From: Segetibacter sp. 3557_3
GTDB taxonomy: Bacteria; Bacteroidota; Bacteroidia; Chitinophagales; Chitinophagaceae
Reading direction: 5' to 3'
NCBI RefSeq assembly: GCF_004354985.1
Contig: NZ_SMSK01000002.1
Location: 124,001-188,000, forward strand
Length of the DNA stretch: 64,000 nt
Numbering within the stretch: position 1 is the stretch's first letter; each line of letters starts with the position of its first letter. Shown piece after piece: positions 47,958 to 56,062 of this stretch. The notes beneath the pieces are model-generated. The model did no database searches and was not told the origin of the DNA. It saw only the letters and a program-made list of their open reading frames with translations. The translations under genes and the position numbers were made by a program.

Positions 47958-48131
47958 CAAATTTGCAATAAAGGAAAGGTTTGAAGCCAGGCGGAAGTTA
48001 TGCCATGTTTGTGATTTTAGACCGGGGAAAGATGGCGGCTTTCGCCAGATTTCACAACCAACCCATGCTGCCGGTTGATTAATTCGAAAATGGCTGGTCT
48101 TGTAAGTAACCGGTACAGGTAAACTGATTTA

Positions 48132-48162
48132 TTTGGTAAATACAGGTTGACCATTATCTTTG
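48132..48162 (+). promoter_or_regulatory. his operon promoter (-33/-7 type)
   Basis: TTTG at 48132-48135, 19 bases, then a perfect TATCTTTG at 48155-48162. The leader peptide ATG begins only four bases after the box, so the transcript probably starts at or within a few bases of this ATG. Confidence 0.75.
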
Positions 48163-48166
48163 CCGC

Positions 48167-48217
48167 ATGAAAACAACCATGCATTTTCATCGCCATCATG
48201 TTATACCCCTCGGGTAG
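48167..48217 (+). CDS. hisL: his operon leader peptide
   Basis: A 16-codon ORF, MKTTMHFHRHHVIPLG, with four His codons within six positions (48182-48199). His is otherwise among the rarer residues, so this density just upstream of hisG is telling. The stop TAG (48215-48217) lies within the strand that can form the antiterminator (48213-48220). There is no room for a Shine-Dalgarno sequence if transcription begins just after the -7 box. Ribosome stalling at the His codons under histidine shortage is the expected control signal. Not tested by experiment here. Confidence 0.8.
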   Translation: MKTTMHFHRHHVIPLG

Positions 48218-48280
48218 GCCGGTGTTGTATGCATATATAAATACATTGAAGGCTTACCGTTGAGGTAGGCCTTTATTATT
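48213..48280 (+). terminator. his attenuator: antiterminator and terminator
   Basis: Terminator: AAGGCTTACC (48249-48258), loop GTTGA, GGTAGGCCTT (48264-48273), a 10-bp stem followed by TTTATTATT. Antiterminator: GGTAGGCC at 48213-48220, an exact copy of the terminator's 3' arm (48264-48271), can instead pair with GGCTTACC (48251-48258). A ribosome at the leader stop codon would cover 48213-48220 and favour termination; one stalled at the His codons ends about 13 bases upstream and leaves it free. Confidence 0.75.
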
Positions 48281-48350
48281 TATGGCTGTTTTCAGGTGCC
48301 AGGCAGGTGCATTATTAATTACTTCGGTAAATCAACTTTTTCGAAATATC

Positions 48351-49208
48351 ATGGGCTTAACAATTGCAATTCAGAAGTCGGGCAGGTTACACGATGATAG
48401 TATTAAACTGCTAAAAGAATGTGGAATAGACATTGCCAATGGTGTGAATAAATTGAAGGCTGAGGCAAGCAATTTTCCCATTGAAGTTTATTTTCTACGC
48501 GACGACGACATTCCACAGTATGTTGAAGACGCTGTGGCCGACATTGGGATCGTAGGAGAAAATGTGGTTTATGAAAAAAACAAGAAAGTTGAGGTTGTAG
48601 AAAAACTGGGATTTGGCAAGTGCCGGTTAAGCATAGCGGTTAGTCGTAACGAGAAATATGATGAACATTCCAATTACCTCGAGGGTAAAAGAATAGCCAC
48701 CACCTATCCGCACATTGTACAAAAGTACCTTGATGAAAAAAACATCAATGCCGAAATTCACGAGATCAGCGGAAGCGTTGAAATTGCTCCGGGCATCGGC
48801 CTGGCGCATGCCATCTGCGACCTCGTGAGCAGTGGTTCTACCTTGTTTATGAATGGGCTCAAGGAAGTTGAAACCATCCTGCAATCGCAGGCGGTACTGA
48901 TCAAACATAAGGGGCTTGGTGCCGAGAAACAACAGATCCTCGACAAGTTGCTGTTTCGTTTCCAGGCCGTTAAAAAAGCAAAAAATAATAAGTACATATT
49001 ATTAAACGCACCGAACGAAAACCTTGCTGAGATCGTTAGCCTGTTACCCGGAATGAAAAGTCCTACGGTGCTTCCTTTAGCCGAAACCGGCTGGAGCAGC
49101 GTTCATAGTGTGCTCAGTGAAAACGAATTCTGGGATAACATTGAACGCTTAAAAGCTGCGGGTGCCCAGGGTATACTGGTGGTGCCGATAGAAAAAATGA
49201 TCATCTAA
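48351..49208 (+). CDS. hisG: ATP phosphoribosyltransferase, long form
   Basis: 285 residues; it catalyses the first step of histidine synthesis (ATP + PRPP). The ATG at 48351 gives MGLTIAIQKSGRLHDDSIKLL, the usual start. An upstream frame from 48282 overlaps the attenuator's downstream edge and is rejected. The catalytic part has EVYFLRDDDIPQYVEDAVADIGIVGENV and EIAPGIGLAHAICDLVSSGSTL. The C-terminal 75 residues (LLNAPNENLAEIVSLLPGMKSPTVLPL onward) are the regulatory ACT-like domain of the long form, which allows feedback by histidine and replaces HisZ. Confidence 0.95.
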   Translation: MGLTIAIQKSGRLHDDSIKLLKECGIDIANGVNKLKAEASNFPIEVYFLRDDDIPQYVEDAVADIGIVGENVVYEKNKKVEVVEKLGFGKCRLSIAVSRNEKYDEHSNYLEGKRIATTYPHIVQKYLDEKNINAEIHEISGSVEIAPGIGLAHAICDLVSSGSTLFMNGLKEVETILQSQAVLIKHKGLGAEKQQILDKLLFRFQAVKKAKNNKYILLNAPNENLAEIVSLLPGMKSPTVLPLAETGWSSVHSVLSENEFWDNIERLKAAGAQGILVVPIEKMII

Positions 49209-49260: not shown

Positions 49261-50553
49261 ATGAATTTACCAACCTATTTGTATCCCGGTCGTAGTGAAT
49301 GGCAGGGGCTTTTACAGCGGCCCGTGTTCGATAACAGTTCACTCGAATTGTTGGTGGGCGGCATACTTGCTGACGTAAAAAAAGATGGTGACAAGGCCAT
49401 CAGGCGCTTTGCCCAAAAATTCGACGGGGTTGAATTAACTGAGCTCGAGGTGTCACCTGCCGAAATCAGCGAAGCCATTGCAACAGTTCCCCTGGATGTT
49501 AAACAGGCCATACGTCAGGCAGGTGAAAACATTAGTAAGTTCCATACAGCGCAGCTGGTACAGGAGCAACCGGTGGAGACGATGCCAGGTGTATTATGCT
49601 GGAGAAAAAGCGTAGCGATCGATAAAGTTGGATTATATATTCCGGGTGGTACTGCGCCGCTGTTTTCAACCATTCTTATGCTGGGCCTGCCGGCAACAAT
49701 TGCAGGGTGTAAAGAGATTGTGCTTTGTTCCCCACCCAATAAGGAAGGCAAGCTCCACCCGGCAATCCTGTTTGCGGCGCATCATGTCGGCATCACCAGA
49801 ATCTTTAAAGTGGGCGGCGCCCAGGCCATTGCTGCGATGGCTTATGGCACTCAAACCATCCCTGCGGTTTATAAGATTTTTGGTCCGGGTAACCAATATG
49901 TAACAAGTGCGAAACAACTGGTTCAAAAAAGTGGTGTGGCCATTGATATGCCCGCGGGTCCCAGTGAAGTTGCGGTACTCGCGGACGACACTGCCAACGC
50001 AGGATTTGTTGCCGCCGACTTACTGAGCCAGGCCGAACATGGCGCCGACAGCCAGGTGTTGCTGGTAACCACTTCGGAGCAGTTGGGACGTAACACAGAA
50101 GCAGCATTAGCACAGCAGCTTCAATCGATTGGCCGTAACGAGCTTGCGGTAAAAGCACTTGCAAACAGTAAGGTGATCGTGGTAAAAACAATGGGTGATG
50201 GAATAGACCTCATTAACGAATATGCACCTGAACACCTGATCATAAGCTGTGCAAATGAAGAAGCGGTTTGTTCGGCAATCGTAAATGCCGGTTCGGTTTT
50301 CCTCGGCAATTATTCACCCGAAAGCGTGGGCGATTATGCAAGCGGTACCAACCATACCCTACCTACCAACGGATACGCCAAGGCATACAGCGGGGTTAGT
50401 GTCGACAGCTTTGTTAAAAAGATCACTTACCAGAAGCTAAGCAGAACCGGACTTGCCGCAATCGGCCATACCGTGCAGGTGATGGCCAATGCTGAGGGTC
50501 TTGATGCACATGCGCGCGCCGTGAGCATCCGCCTGGAGCAGATGGCGGATTAG
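49261..50553 (+). CDS. hisD: Histidinol dehydrogenase
   Basis: A 430-residue Zn enzyme that makes the last two oxidations to histidine. It has VGLYIPGGTAPLFSTILMLGLPATIAGC, the KVGGAQAIAAMAYGT loop, FGPGNQYVTSAKQLV, DMPAGPSEVAVLADD, LLSQAEHGADSQ (Zn ligands Gln/His), and EHLIISC and NHTLPTNGYAKAYSGVS. 52 bases after hisG. Confidence 0.97.
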   Translation: MNLPTYLYPGRSEWQGLLQRPVFDNSSLELLVGGILADVKKDGDKAIRRFAQKFDGVELTELEVSPAEISEAIATVPLDVKQAIRQAGENISKFHTAQLVQEQPVETMPGVLCWRKSVAIDKVGLYIPGGTAPLFSTILMLGLPATIAGCKEIVLCSPPNKEGKLHPAILFAAHHVGITRIFKVGGAQAIAAMAYGTQTIPAVYKIFGPGNQYVTSAKQLVQKSGVAIDMPAGPSEVAVLADDTANAGFVAADLLSQAEHGADSQVLLVTTSEQLGRNTEAALAQQLQSIGRNELAVKALANSKVIVVKTMGDGIDLINEYAPEHLIISCANEEAVCSAIVNAGSVFLGNYSPESVGDYASGTNHTLPTNGYAKAYSGVSVDSFVKKITYQKLSRTGLAAIGHTVQVMANAEGLDAHARAVSIRLEQMAD

Positions 50554-50595: not shown

Positions 50596-51672
50596 ATGTT
50601 TGAGCTGGAAAAACTCATTCGTGAGAACATTAAAAAGCTGGTGCCATATTCTTCTGCCCGCGATGAGTTTACCGGGCAAGCCAATGTTTACCTCGATGCC
50701 AATGAAAATTCGCTAGGCTCGCCGCTGGTGAAATGGTATAACCGGTACCCCGATCCGCATCAAACCCAGCTAAAAGACGCTATCTCACGTGTGAAAGGTG
50801 CACCTGCCGAACGCATCTTCCTAGGCAATGGAAGCGACGAATGTATCGACCTGTTGTACCGAAGTTTTTGTAATCCAGGAAAGGACAATGTTATCATCTG
50901 TCCGCCCACCTACGGTATGTATGAGGTTAGTGCGAACATCAATGATGTTGAAATTCGGAGGGCCCCGCTGCTCGACAACTTCCAGCTTGATCTTGTGCAC
51001 ATCGAAACCCTGGTGGATGCAAACACGAAACTGCTCTGGATTTGTTCGCCAAATAATCCAACCGGCAATTCTATCGAACGGGAAGATATTGAGATGGTGC
51101 TCAACAATTTCAATGGTATTGTAGTCATCGATGAAGCGTACATCAATTTCTCCCGGCAAAAGTCTTTTGTGCAGGAGTTGGCTGACTACCCGAACCTGGT
51201 GGTTATGCAAACCTTTAGTAAAGCATGGGGGCTCGCCGGGCTGCGGCTTGGAATGGCATTCGCTTCACCAGAAATCATCAATGTGCTCAATAAAGTTAAA
51301 CCGCCCTACAACATCAACCAGGCCACACAGGATCTTGCAATGAAGGCATTGGAAGAAGTAGGACAGGTTAACGATATGATCAAAGAACTGGTGCAAATGC
51401 GCGATGCACTTGCCGAAGTGTTTCAAAAGCTGCCGGGTGTTCAGGCGGTATACCCTTCCGACGCAAACTTTCTGCTGGTAAAAGTTGATGAGCCCAAAGA
51501 AATGTACACCTACCTGCTCGGCAAGGGAATAGTTGTGCGCGATCGAAGCAATGTGATCCTGTGCGAAGGTTGCTTGCGGATTACCATTGGCACCGAACAG
51601 GAAAATACCGTTCTTGTCGATGCCTTTATTGATGCAATTACAGAAAAACAGGTTTCCTTAAACCAGAACTAA
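50596..51672 (+). CDS. hisC: Histidinol-phosphate aminotransferase
   Basis: A 358-residue PLP class II aminotransferase. It has [52 protein letters not shown] and [18 protein letters not shown] with PLP-binding Lys209. It converts imidazole acetol phosphate to histidinol phosphate. Five bases separate it from hisB. Confidence 0.95.
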
Positions 51673-51677
51673 TTCTA

Positions 51678-52820
51678 ATGGCCAAAAGAATACTTTTCAT
51701 TGACCGCGATGGTACACTTATCAACGAGGCGCCGCCAACCTACCAGATCGATGGTTTTGACAAGCTTACCTTCTACCCCGGGATGTTTCGCTACATGGGC
51801 AATATTGCATCTGAGCTCGATTACCTCCTTGTAATGGTCAGCAACCAGGACGGACTTGGCACCCCATCCTTCCCCGATGAAACCTTTTGGCCGGTGCATG
51901 ACTTCATCATGAAAAGTCTCGAAAACGAAGGGATTCATTTTCACGAGTTCCTGTTCGACCGCAGCTACCCCGAAGAAAATAAGCCAACGCGCAAGCCAGC
52001 CACGGGCATGATGACTGCTTACATGGATAACCCCGATTTTGATATCGCCAATTCGTATGTGATTGGCGACAGGATAACAGATGTACAACTGGCTAAAAAC
52101 CTCGGCTGTAAGGCGATCTGGATCAACAACGACCCAAACCTTGGAGGTGGTGAAGTAAAGGATAGACAAGAGGAACTGCGCGAAGTAATAGCACTTGAAA
52201 CCCGCGACTGGAAAGATATTTATGCTTTTCTAAAACTCGGTCTCCGTAAAGTTGAACACCAGCGGAACACCAACGAAACAAAGATTACGGTCAATGTAAA
52301 TATGGATGGCAGCGGCAATGCTGCAATTGATACCGGGCTTGGATTTTTCGATCACATGCTCGACCAGATTGCCCGTCACGGTAAGATTGACCTGGCCATA
52401 AAGGCCAATGGCGATCTGCACATCGATGAGCACCATACCATTGAAGACGTTGGTATTGCCCTTGGTGAAGCTTTTGCGCTTGCGCTTGCCGACAAACGCG
52501 GTATGGAACGGTATGGATTTGCATTGCCGATGGATGAAGCAGAAGCGAAAGTGCTCATCGATTTTGGTGGCCGCAACTGGCTGATATGGGATGCTGAGTT
52601 TAAGCGCGAGAAGATAGGGGAGATGCCGACAGAAATGTTTTTTCACTTCTTCAAGTCGTTCAGCGACGCGGCAAAATGCAACCTCAACATCTTTTGCCGG
52701 GGCGAAAATGAACACCACAAAATCGAGGCAATATTTAAAGCTTTTGCAAAAGCTATCCGGATGGCGGTAAAGCGCGACCCATTTTCCAATCACCTGCCTT
52801 CAACAAAAGGGGTGCTTTAA
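51678..52820 (+). CDS. hisB: Bifunctional histidinol phosphatase/imidazoleglycerol-phosphate dehydratase
   Basis: A 380-residue fusion. The N-terminal HAD phosphatase (1-165) begins [11 protein letters not shown], with Asp9 and Asp11. The C-terminal IGP dehydratase (about 190-380) shows [45 protein letters not shown] and [16 protein letters not shown], which carry its metal-binding His/Glu sets. The phosphatase's loop around residues 96-108 ([14 protein letters not shown]) lacks the Cys/His ligands of the structural zinc in E. coli HisB. Last gene of the hisGDCB unit. Confidence 0.95.
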
Positions 52821-54435: not shown

Positions 54436-54466
54436 TTTGCATGTAATCTATTTTCCTGCATCTTTG
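54436..54466 (+). promoter_or_regulatory. trp operon promoter (-33/-7 type)
   Basis: TTTG at 54436-54439, 19 bases, then CATCTTTG at 54459-54466, one base off the TAnnTTTG consensus. The leader ORF begins four bases later, the same geometry as at the his leader. Confidence 0.68.
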
Positions 54467-54470
54467 TAAC

Positions 54471-54524
54471 GTGAAAACAATAAAAAATAACAATTGGTGG
54501 CATAGCATCTCCTTCCCGGGGTAG
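54471..54524 (+). CDS. trpL: trp operon leader peptide
   Basis: A 17-codon ORF with a GTG start, MKTIKNNNWWHSISFPG, with tandem Trp codons at 54495-54500. Two adjacent Trp codons in such a short ORF ahead of trpE are the hallmark of trp attenuation. It shares TGAAAACAA at its 5' end with the his leader. The TAG stop (54522-54524) overlaps the edge of the antiterminator strand (54516-54522). No room for a Shine-Dalgarno sequence if transcription starts next to the GTG. Confidence 0.8.
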   Translation: MKTIKNNNWWHSISFPG

Positions 54525-54586
54525 CTATGTTTTTGCTTTTGTTGCAACATAATTAAGCCCTGGCATCAATAAAGCCGGGGCTTTTT
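54516..54586 (+). terminator. trp attenuator: antiterminator and terminator
   Basis: Terminator: AAGCCCTGGC (54555-54564) pairs with GCCGGGGCTT (54574-54583), one G-T pair, 9-base loop, T-run to 54586. Antiterminator: CCGGGGT at 54516-54522 can pair with GCCCTGG (54557-54563), seven pairs. CCGGGG also occurs in the terminator's 3' arm (54575-54580). The distance from the last Trp codon to the antiterminator arm is 15 bases, close to the 13 in his. Confidence 0.72.
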
Positions 54587-54634
54587 CGTTATACACCGGT
54601 TGTCGCCTTTTCACCGTACCCTTATTCCGATTAT

Positions 54635-56062
54635 ATGAAACCCATTGTTTTTGAGACGGTTTGTAAAAAAATGCTGGCAGATGTATTTACGCCAGTTGGT
54701 ATTTTCCTGAGACTTCGCGATCGCTTCCAGGGAAGTATTCTTATGGAGAGCTCTGATTTTCATGCAGGGGAAAACAGTTTTTCTTTCATCGGTATCAAGC
54801 CGATTGGTGGTATAGAAATCAGTAACGACCAGGCCTTCGAATTTAAGTATCCCGGCGAGCAGGTGGTTCGAAAAAGACTGAACAACAAGGGGGAAGTGGT
54901 TAAAGAACTTAATGCTTTCCTGCAAAGGTTTACACCAGCAAATAAAGCACCCATCCAGGCAGCACAGGGTTTGTTTGGCTACACTACTTACGACGCCATC
55001 CGCTTTTTTGAAGACGTTAAAATGGATGCAAAAAGGGGCGAAGCCGGCCAGGTGATACCGCTCATGCGATACCGCCTGTACCAATATGTAATTGCAATCG
55101 ACCATTATAAAGACGAACTGTATGTTTGCGAAAACCGCATCAATGGCCTTGAAAGCGAGCTCGACCTTATTTTATCACTAATTAAAAGTAAGGATGTACC
55201 GGTTTTCCCGTTCCGTTGCAAAGGACAGGAAAGCTCAAATATGTCCGATGAAACCTATCGCCAGATGGTTGAAACCGGTAAAAAGCATTGTCATCGTGGC
55301 GACGTTTTCCAGGTTGTGCTTAGCCGTCGTTTTCAACAATCGTTTACTGGTGATGAATTCAATGTTTACCGTGCACTGCGTACGGTAAACCCAAGTCCAT
55401 ACCTCTTCTATTTCGACTATAACGACTACAGGCTGATGGGATCTTCGCCCGAAAGTCAACTGATCATACACAACAACAAAGCTATTGTACATCCCATTGC
55501 AGGTACATTCAAGCGTACCGGCGACGATGCACAGGATGAAGTTCTTGCCGACAAGTTATTAAAGGATCCAAAGGAGAATGCCGAACACGTGATGCTGGTT
55601 GATCTTGCCCGTAACGACCTTAGCCGTCATGCTGATGAGGTTGAAGTAACAAGCTATCGTAAGGTGCATTTTTATTCTCACGTCATTCACCTGGTGAGCG
55701 AAGTTTCGGGTCGTCCTAAACAAGACACCAATCCCTTCGAATTGCTTGCCTCAACCTTTCCTGCAGGTACCTTAAGCGGTGCGCCTAAAGTAAGGGCGAT
55801 GGAAATCATCCATGAAAACGAACCCACCTCACGAAGTTTCTACGGCGGCGCAATAGGAATGATTGGCTTCGACGGGCAGTTGAACCATGCAATTATGATC
55901 CGGAGTTTTTTGAGCAAAGACAATACGCTGTACTACCAGGCGGGGGCAGGTATAACAGTAGCATCAAATGCCGAAAGTGAATTGCAGGAAGTTCATAACA
56001 AACTAAACGCATTGAAAACAGCGGTAAAACTCGCAAACGATCTTGATGAAGAGCAGGCTTAG
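54635..56062 (+). CDS. trpE: Anthranilate synthase component I
   Basis: 475 residues; converts chorismate to anthranilate with the TrpG amidotransferase. The N-terminal feedback site is ILMESSDF (LLES-like), consistent with inhibition by tryptophan. The catalytic part shows GDVFQVVLSRRF, NPSPYLFYF, GSSPESQLI, HPIAGTFKR, MLVDLARNDL, FPAGTLSGAPKVRAMEII and GGAIGMIGFDGQL, and ends in AGAGITVASNAESELQEV. It starts 48 bases after the attenuator T-run. Confidence 0.97.
   Translation: MKPIVFETVCKKMLADVFTPVGIFLRLRDRFQGSILMESSDFHAGENSFSFIGIKPIGGIEISNDQAFEFKYPGEQVVRKRLNNKGEVVKELNAFLQRFTPANKAPIQAAQGLFGYTTYDAIRFFEDVKMDAKRGEAGQVIPLMRYRLYQYVIAIDHYKDELYVCENRINGLESELDLILSLIKSKDVPVFPFRCKGQESSNMSDETYRQMVETGKKHCHRGDVFQVVLSRRFQQSFTGDEFNVYRALRTVNPSPYLFYFDYNDYRLMGSSPESQLIIHNNKAIVHPIAGTFKRTGDDAQDEVLADKLLKDPKENAEHVMLVDLARNDLSRHADEVEVTSYRKVHFYSHVIHLVSEVSGRPKQDTNPFELLASTFPAGTLSGAPKVRAMEIIHENEPTSRSFYGGAIGMIGFDGQLNHAIMIRSFLSKDNTLYYQAGAGITVASNAESELQEVHNKLNALKTAVKLANDLDEEQA

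Follow-up and report, generated by a model that had tools for sequence, protein, structure and literature searches.

A compact, probably leaderless histidine attenuator predicted upstream of hisGDCB in Segetibacter sp. 3557_3 and its relatives

Introduction

The closest described counterpart of the element studied here is the leader of the enterobacterial his operon, whose Rfam family, His_leader (RF00514), we take to be of the E. coli hisL type. The trpL attenuator of Sinorhizobium meliloti is leaderless. The 2004 work of Vitreschak et al. reportedly includes cases from Bacteroidetes/Chlorobi, so that an older prediction is likely. Other reports are cited here by PMC number and for those portions of their text that were accessible. 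Cases at hisG have been named in gamma-proteobacteria (PMC4833913), and some sORFs of B. thetaiotaomicron are reminiscent of leader peptides (PMC7366714). A cis-regulatory RNA of Bacteroidetes, the Bacteroid-trp motif RF01692, is related to trp by its name (PMC2864571). The nearest report comes from F. psychrophilum, in which strong clues of leader-peptide attenuation were found in 2021 upstream of amino-acid biosynthesis operons, together with structured 5' elements, among them those of pheA and hisG, which also occur in other Flavobacteriaceae genera and have no Rfam matches (PMC9723704).

Here we describe the region upstream of hisG in Segetibacter sp. 3557_3, probably a soil bacterium. By the window we mean the whole stretch of 64,000 nucleotides that was analysed; all its features named below lie on the forward (+) strand. 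Like E. coli hisL, the leader in this window has a run of His codons in a 16-codon ORF, competing hairpins and a terminator before hisG.

Results

The leader begins with two promoter elements, TTTG at 48132-48135 near -33 (predicted -35 to -32) and the -7 element TATCTTTG at 48155-48162 (predicted -12 to -5). Four nucleotides separate the latter from the ATG at 48167, which opens the 16-codon leader ORF MKTTMHFHRHHVIPLG (48167-48217) with His codons at 48182, 48188, 48194 and 48197 and the stop codon TAG at 48215-48217. This stop codon lies within segment 2, the antiterminator arm GGTAGGCC (48213-48220). The shared strand GGCTTACC (segment 3, 48251-48258) can pair either with this arm or with the identical segment 4, GGTAGGCC at 48264-48271, which is the 3' arm of an intrinsic terminator (48245-48283) with the stem ATTGAAGGCTTACC/GGTAGGCCTTTATT (48245-48277). 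The T-tract of this terminator is interrupted (TTTATTATTTAT), which counts against reading the element as an attenuator. The fold of positions 48140-48330 is better than that of 198 of 200 shuffled sequences (z -2.73). Profile matches identify the operon 3' of the leader as hisGDCB: hisG, for ATP phosphoribosyltransferase (48351-49208; TIGR00070, 199.2 bits against a cut-off of 75.75), followed by hisD (49261-50553; TIGR00069), hisC (50596-51672; TIGR01141) and the bifunctional hisB (51678-52820; NF003937), the last three also above their cut-offs. An earlier, sequence-only reading of this DNA had noted the -7 box, the 16-codon ORF with its four His codons and an antiterminator arm that exactly copies the 3' arm of the terminator, and its letters and coordinates were all confirmed. 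It had also described two mutually exclusive pairings that use one strand; this was correct and at the same time incomplete, since a third hairpin (~48179-48234) competes as well. It had likewise passed over the stop codon within the arm and the closeness of the start codon to the predicted +1.

How far is this arrangement conserved? The hisG upstream regions were collected by way of HisG, and gave 80 named loci, the best of 334, and a further 30, which were the best from 143 hisG-bearing genomes in a set of 195 of the family; because the loci were taken as the best of longer lists, the set leans to close relatives. From the 111 loci we left out L052, the upstream region of which was too short, and L001, which duplicates the window. 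Identical leaders among the remaining 109 were then merged, which gave 93 distinct leaders of the Chitinophagaceae type, the window included; the family loci L112, L113, L114 and L124 stand outside this set. All 93 leaders have an ORF with at least three His codons and a terminator. A strict test for a His ORF (HHH or at least four His in an ORF of 7-40 residues) was passed by 90 of the 93; among dinucleotide shuffles 35 of 930 passed, and among reverse complements 6 of 93. When a TAnnTTTG box just upstream was demanded as well, 73 leaders passed and none of the 930 shuffles or 93 reverse complements did. These counts are not independent events, since the loci are related. The leaders of the same-genus genomes G098 and G172 equal those of L011 (Segetibacter aerophilus) and L069 (Segetibacter koreensis). 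At least five T in eight positions follow the competing hairpin in 93/93 leaders, a figure to be read with the fact that T-richness partly guided the choice of hairpin. A short ORF with a run of cognate codons 5' of a biosynthetic operon, one mark of the functional class of ribosome-mediated amino-acid attenuators, is present.

Outside the family, the class survey covered 171 genomes with hisG, and 88 loci were examined, 28 of them the new closest ones from the search and 60 picked across families. The strict His-ORF test was passed by 70 of 84 loci from 41 other families, the passing loci falling in 31 families, compared with 27 of 840 shuffles; as 14 of the 84 failed, the his leader is not universal there. 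We found no leader in L131 (where only a short stretch was available), L139, L178, L187, L189 and L193. The four loci of family f41 have His-rich ORFs and no convincing terminator, and some loci of f3, f16, f50 and f68 are doubtful.

The two switching helices were examined in the alignment of the 93 distinct leaders (A1). In the terminator helix 3:4, 98.9% of cells are paired and seven of ten pairs show changes on both sides; none of 500 shuffles reached this helix in any of five measures. For the antiterminator helix 2:3 the share of paired cells is 98.2%, and both-side changes occur in three of eight pairs, amounting to 13 cells; none of 500 shuffles came as high in paired cells, changed cells or covariation score, while 9 of 500 did so for pairs and 17 of 500 for pair types. 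When helix 2:3 was slid by one column, 19 changed cells were counted instead of 13, yet pairing fell to only 51.8%. The arm of 2:3 is almost invariant within the family and compensation is sparse. In L067 and L102 the shared strand has become GGTTCGCC and both pairings still form, and several other families carry strands such as CCCGTCTGA with matching arms, so that the whole set of helices has changed. In a swap test across families, 63 of 89 loci (the 88 class loci and the window) passed the terminator filters and the first locus of each family was kept, which left 34. Their arms paired better with their own strand than with those of other families (-13.72 against -10.74 kcal/mol), and none of 5000 permutations was as good. 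This also held for the 17 representatives without the commonest strand (-12.98 against -9.60 kcal/mol; 0/5000; own strand best in 4 of 17), where GCTT[A/G][C/T]C was excluded and near variants remained included. The own strand was the single best partner for 2:3 in only 6 of the 34 families, partly because many families share GGCTTACC. A second mark of the functional class is accordingly found, namely an exclusive antiterminator and terminator kept through compensating change, which for 2:3 is sparse within the family. The sequence-only reading was to be given up if related genomes had no conserved His-rich ORF or no compensating changes in the stems; the comparison was made, and the ORF and both stems proved to be conserved.

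The third hairpin, 1:2, would protect the arm. In the window, the stretch from the ATG to 48244 folds at -17.6 kcal/mol into a long hairpin at about 48179-48234. Its outer and middle helices are built from codons around and within the His run, and in the inner helix the codons preceding the stop pair with the antiterminator arm and sequester it; these codons often read CTTACC, which is nearly the sequence of segment 3. At least five of the eight arm bases are held by upstream pairing in the minimum-energy folds of 91 of the 93 leaders. Compared with the mean of 60 shuffles of its own, each of the 93 prefixes has the better fold, the margin exceeding 2 sd for 36, and in the swap test on the same 34 families 1:2 pairing reached -14.77 against -11.84 kcal/mol (0/5000 permutations; own best in 2 of 34). 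Within the family we saw no covariation in the inner 1:2 helix (score 0.179 against 0.197 for shuffled alignments, 489 of 500 shuffles scoring as high or higher). Of hairpin 1:2, RNAalifold on the full alignment recovered no more than three pairs, along with the terminator; unequal lengths of the outer arms are the probable cause, and we therefore used per-sequence folds and swap tests. Judged by these, hairpin 1:2 is predicted to favour termination when the leader is not translated, and would complete the classical three-hairpin plan. Pairing at the level of RNA, rather than a function of the peptide, would also explain why the leader peptides commonly end in LPxG/R.

The His codons stand at a nearly fixed distance from the antiterminator arm. 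Counted from the first base of the last His codon in the cluster, the arm follows after 16 nt in 60 of the 93 leaders and after 13-19 nt in 86. The usual ribosome footprint reaches about 12-13 nt beyond the first base of the A-site codon, so that a ribosome stalled at this His codon would leave the arm free. In 81 leaders the stop codon begins 2 nt inside the arm (GG-stop-GCC), in ten it lies 2-5 nt before the arm start and in two 10 nt after it. The count of 81 was taken from alignment columns and supersedes one of 75/93 from a duplex search. The antiterminators which that search had returned for L012, L019, L030, L033, L054 and L099 were other, longer helices, and they were replaced by the alignment columns. 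UUA occurs in the shared strand of 91 of the 93 leaders; this triplet matches UAA, and wobble pairing lets it join UAG and UGA too. As the triplet in the arm we counted UAG 58 times, UAA 32 times and UGA three times. The strand GGCTTACC may be almost frozen because its UUA must pair with whichever stop codon, UAA, UAG or UGA, lies inside the arm. Stop-in-arm is not a feature of the whole class, being found in 29 of 74 leaders by duplex extent, which is a generous measure, and in leaders with SQAK/SQAR-like endings the arm precedes the stop codon.

The promoter predicts an unusually short 5' end. The TAnnTTTG element has been placed at -12 to -5 (PMC9723704), in agreement with a register from T-12 to G-5 (PMC6847099), and with the -7 box of the window in this register the predicted +1 is 48167, the start codon itself. 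The predicted 5' leader is 0-6 nt long in 76 of the 93 family leaders, 10-18 nt in 11 and undefined in six, which have no exact box. An exact -7 box in the equivalent stretch of seven positions occurs at 45 of 20,394 background positions (0.2%), and TTTG near -33, within a 10-nt stretch, accompanies 75 of the 87 exact boxes against a background of 7%. GTG is the start codon of two of the 93 his leaders, L035 and L078; in these, and in the trp leader of the window (54471), the box stands exactly at -12, which puts the GTG at the predicted +1. The tendency is weaker outside the family: among 74 leaders with a terminator from there, 32 had a predicted 5' leader under 10 nt, 20 had a longer one and 22 had no exact box. 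A search of the whole genome for a consensus promoter with a start codon at 3-6 nt gave 23 sites, compared with 57 for a reversed-pattern control, so the pattern by itself shows no enrichment; on visual inspection, leaders with cognate codons followed no more than two of the 23 sites, those of his and trp. Judging from these promoter motifs, the his leader ORF is probably leaderless or nearly so. This start would be uncommon in the phylum, in which ~3.7% of the 5' UTRs of B. thetaiotaomicron are shorter than 10 nt (PMC7366714), 5.5% are leaderless in F. psychrophilum (PMC9723704) and 87% of 5' leaders exceed 10 nt in F. johnsoniae (PMC6847099). Should the leader ORFs really prove leaderless, they would provide, in a phylum with few such mRNAs, a natural experiment on leaderless initiation.

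Leaders with cognate codons are also present at other amino-acid operons of the same genome. Six kilobases downstream of the his leader, and within the window (54436-54595), is a trp leader. Its promoter consists of TTTG (54436-54439) and CATCTTTG (54459-54466), one base off TAnnTTTG, and its ORF VKTIKNNNWWHSISFPG (54471-54524) has a GTG at the predicted +1 and the stop codon TAG at 54522-54524, the first base of which is touched by the antiterminator arm CCGGGGT (54516-54522). The terminator that follows, AAGCCCTGGC/GCCGGGGCTT with a T-tract (54555-54589), has a 5' arm that can alternatively pair with this CCGGGGT at the end of the ORF, and next comes a trpE-like gene for anthranilate synthase component I (54635-56062; TIGR00564, 423.7 bits, below the cut-off of 517.7). 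A leader ORF with at least two Trp codons was found in 30/30 loci, that is, the window and 29 relatives which were the best matches of 98 genomes, and a slightly relaxed -7 box gives predicted 5' leaders of 0-5 nt in 23 of the 30. Elsewhere in the genome, ilvE-ilvD-ilvB is preceded (L257:857-1046, C11) by the Ile/Val-rich ORF MLKSRLHNGLTLVTRIIVVVIIIIPAFTGGALSI with a near-leaderless promoter, a predicted 5' leader of 6 nt and the terminator AAAGCCCACC/GGTGGGCTTT, and a prephenate dehydratase gene (L258:6804-6979, C11) by the Phe/Tyr-rich ORF MNNTIAFFGFYYYFFSKKPGSFC, with a near-leaderless promoter, a predicted 5' leader of 3 nt and a terminator. No Thr leader was seen by simple criteria before thrA.

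With a covariance model built on the his leader (R1), matches at E <=0.01 were obtained in 119 of 298 genomes from the order. Eleven matches were picked for inspection, mostly weak ones or ones from genomes without a listed hisG, and eight proved to be Lys-rich leaders, of which six precede an aminotransferase gene and the remaining two lysA (L276) and asd (L279). The others included a His leader before hisG (L277) and a Cys-rich leader (L280). The match L270, considered as a leader, looks like an unrelated terminator and was rejected. Five genomes of the family (G031, G069, G094, G169 and G192) have no listed hisG match and yet match R1; six of their matches were inspected, five being of the Lys type and the sixth L270. 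In all, leaders with Lys codons stand before the aminotransferase gene in L271-L275, L278, L281, L282, L284 and L302, with lysC next in L272, L273 and L278; L271 and L274 share the same leader. In these Lys leaders, with L276 and L279 included, the strand is mostly of the GGCTTACC type, and the stop codon lies within a GGTRR arm in some (e.g. L272, L273, L276) and not in others (e.g. L278, L279). We take them to be candidate lysine attenuators from these features of their sequence. Among 33 further aminotransferase loci that were not chosen for a leader, a Lys leader was recognized by eye in six, two of them in the same genomes again, and a Lys-type leader before this gene is absent from Segetibacter sp. 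3557_3 and most of the relatives examined; the Lys leader is thus patchy in the family. Of 12 extra aminotransferase regions, nine had no alignable gene start and were left out. The Cys-rich leader L280 (G125:C1:661700-664700) has the ORF CCCMRMSRCCC and a terminator before a gene for an EamA/YedA-type transporter, and it is possibly a cysteine attenuator.

Discussion

The anatomy of the sequence, its conservation and the pairing kept through sequence change make it very probable, in our judgement, that the his leader is a ribosome-mediated transcription attenuator of the his operon, for which we propose the following course, from the start of transcription through translation and stalling to termination, and with it a response to histidine. 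RNA polymerase would start at or next to the AUG, so that a ribosome could load at once on the (nearly) leaderless ORF. When His-tRNA is scarce, the ribosome would stall at the His codons, some 16 nt short of the antiterminator arm, and break hairpin 1:2, while the arm GGTAGGCC stays free to pair with GGCTTACC; formation of 2:3 would block the terminator and hisGDCB would be transcribed. With plentiful His-tRNA the ribosome would reach the stop codon and, as this lies inside the arm, would cover the arm while terminating, leaving GGCTTACC to pair with the downstream GGTAGGCC (3:4) and transcription to stop. If there is no translation, hairpin 1:2 would hold the arm and the terminator would win. 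The logic of enterobacterial his attenuation, which the sequence-only reading had proposed, is supported by the near-fixed distance of the His codons from the arm, by the preservation of both helices and by the downstream hisGDCB. A further parallel in its favour is that trp, ilv and phe in this genome have leaders with their own cognate codons.

Could the hairpin instead be a constitutive terminator, the short ORF incidental and the his operon driven by partial read-through? The strongest covariation does sit in the terminator, but the His codons, their spacing of 13-19 nt from the arm (86/93) and the alternative helix 2:3 are conserved too, and we hold this to be highly improbable. We see slightly less chance that the leader controls the translation of hisG, and not its transcription, by sequestering the start. 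Leader-peptide systems acting on translation exist, the erm genes being an example, and provide a precedent; here, however, some 70 nt lie between the terminator and the start of hisG (48351), and a T-rich stretch comes after the competing hairpin in all 93 leaders, a regularity for which T-richness was partly a selection criterion.

Least probable of all, we think, is that the RNA senses uncharged tRNA or histidine directly, as a T-box or riboswitch. T-boxes do regulate his genes in Firmicutes and Actinobacteria, as the accessible text of one report has it (PMC9413887), but Rfam at the gathering threshold recognized five tRNA genes only in the window and nothing in 18 relatives, no T-box was among the three matches to the leader up to E 10, and direct sensing has no need of conserved in-frame His codons. 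A little more room, and still very little, should be left for the terminated leader RNA or the peptide acting in trans as well, for which peTrpL of Sinorhizobium offers a precedent (PMC7298713, in its accessible part). The conserved peptide end LPxG/R speaks against it, because it coincides with the constraints of RNA pairing and the conservation of the peptide needs no further cause. Attenuation by a translating ribosome remains the reading that we prefer.

A broader question is whether a single compact attenuator plan serves the Chitinophagaceae as a general amino-acid sensor, with a (nearly) leaderless ORF, cognate codons about 16 nt before the arm and a stop codon inside or next to it. The his and trp ORFs would start at +1, phe 3 nt and ilv 6 nt downstream, Lys versions would occur in some genera and the leader peptides would form a systematically leaderless class. 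We are evenly divided on this: the 16-nt and stop-in-arm geometry was measured in his leaders, and for phe and ilv the evidence consists of the ORF, the promoter and the terminator. If the general plan is true, the leaderless start perhaps ties ribosome loading to the moment at which transcription begins. Lys-codon leaders would, in addition, bring in an amino acid for which a literature search showed, among the papers listed, no title on a Lys leader peptide. The literature searches as a whole, in the titles and abstracts listed and with most subscription journals lying outside them, gave no account that we recognized of the present anatomy, of leaderless leader peptides in Bacteroidota or of Lys leader peptides.

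How does the leader compare with the systems already described? The sequence-only reading held that it was not a described RNA family in this lineage. This stands in so far as Rfam has no match, but the clues of leader peptides and the structured hisG 5' element in F. psychrophilum (PMC9723704, accessible text) go against it, and since they were reported earlier, the leader in the window is not a new kind of element. The F. psychrophilum element shares phylum and gene with our leader and likewise has no Rfam match; the section on these elements, in the text that was accessible, gives no anatomy, codon geometry or pairing (PMC9723704). The leader described here supplies a testable anatomy for a mode of amino-acid control in Bacteroidota that has been hinted at in print. 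For the trp leader of the window the nearest family is Bacteroid-trp, RF01692, with which it shares the phylum and the link to trp (by name in the case of RF01692); this model did not match it at the gathering threshold or up to E 10. S. meliloti trpL has its leader ORF at the 5' end of the RNA, as is predicted for the his leader, and it differs in being alphaproteobacterial and in serving a different amino acid.

With RF00514 no match was obtained at the gathering threshold in the window and 18 relatives, nor up to E 10 for positions 48100-48400, and the three Rfam matches to the his leader up to E 10 were irrelevant and far below their cut-offs. In E. coli K-12 a similar duplex method puts the start of the arm 34 nt beyond the stop codon and 43 nt beyond the last His codon; in the window the arm opens 2 nt ahead of the stop, at a distance of 16 nt from the last His codon. 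The promoter class differs from that of hisL as well. As far as its sequence allows us to predict, the his leader works like the enterobacterial his attenuator in another layout that falls outside the Rfam model of the latter. The comparison gives good support to the view that the leader works by classical ribosome-mediated attenuation, a principle in itself ordinary, in a variant that is compact, probably leaderless and paralleled at several amino-acid operons.
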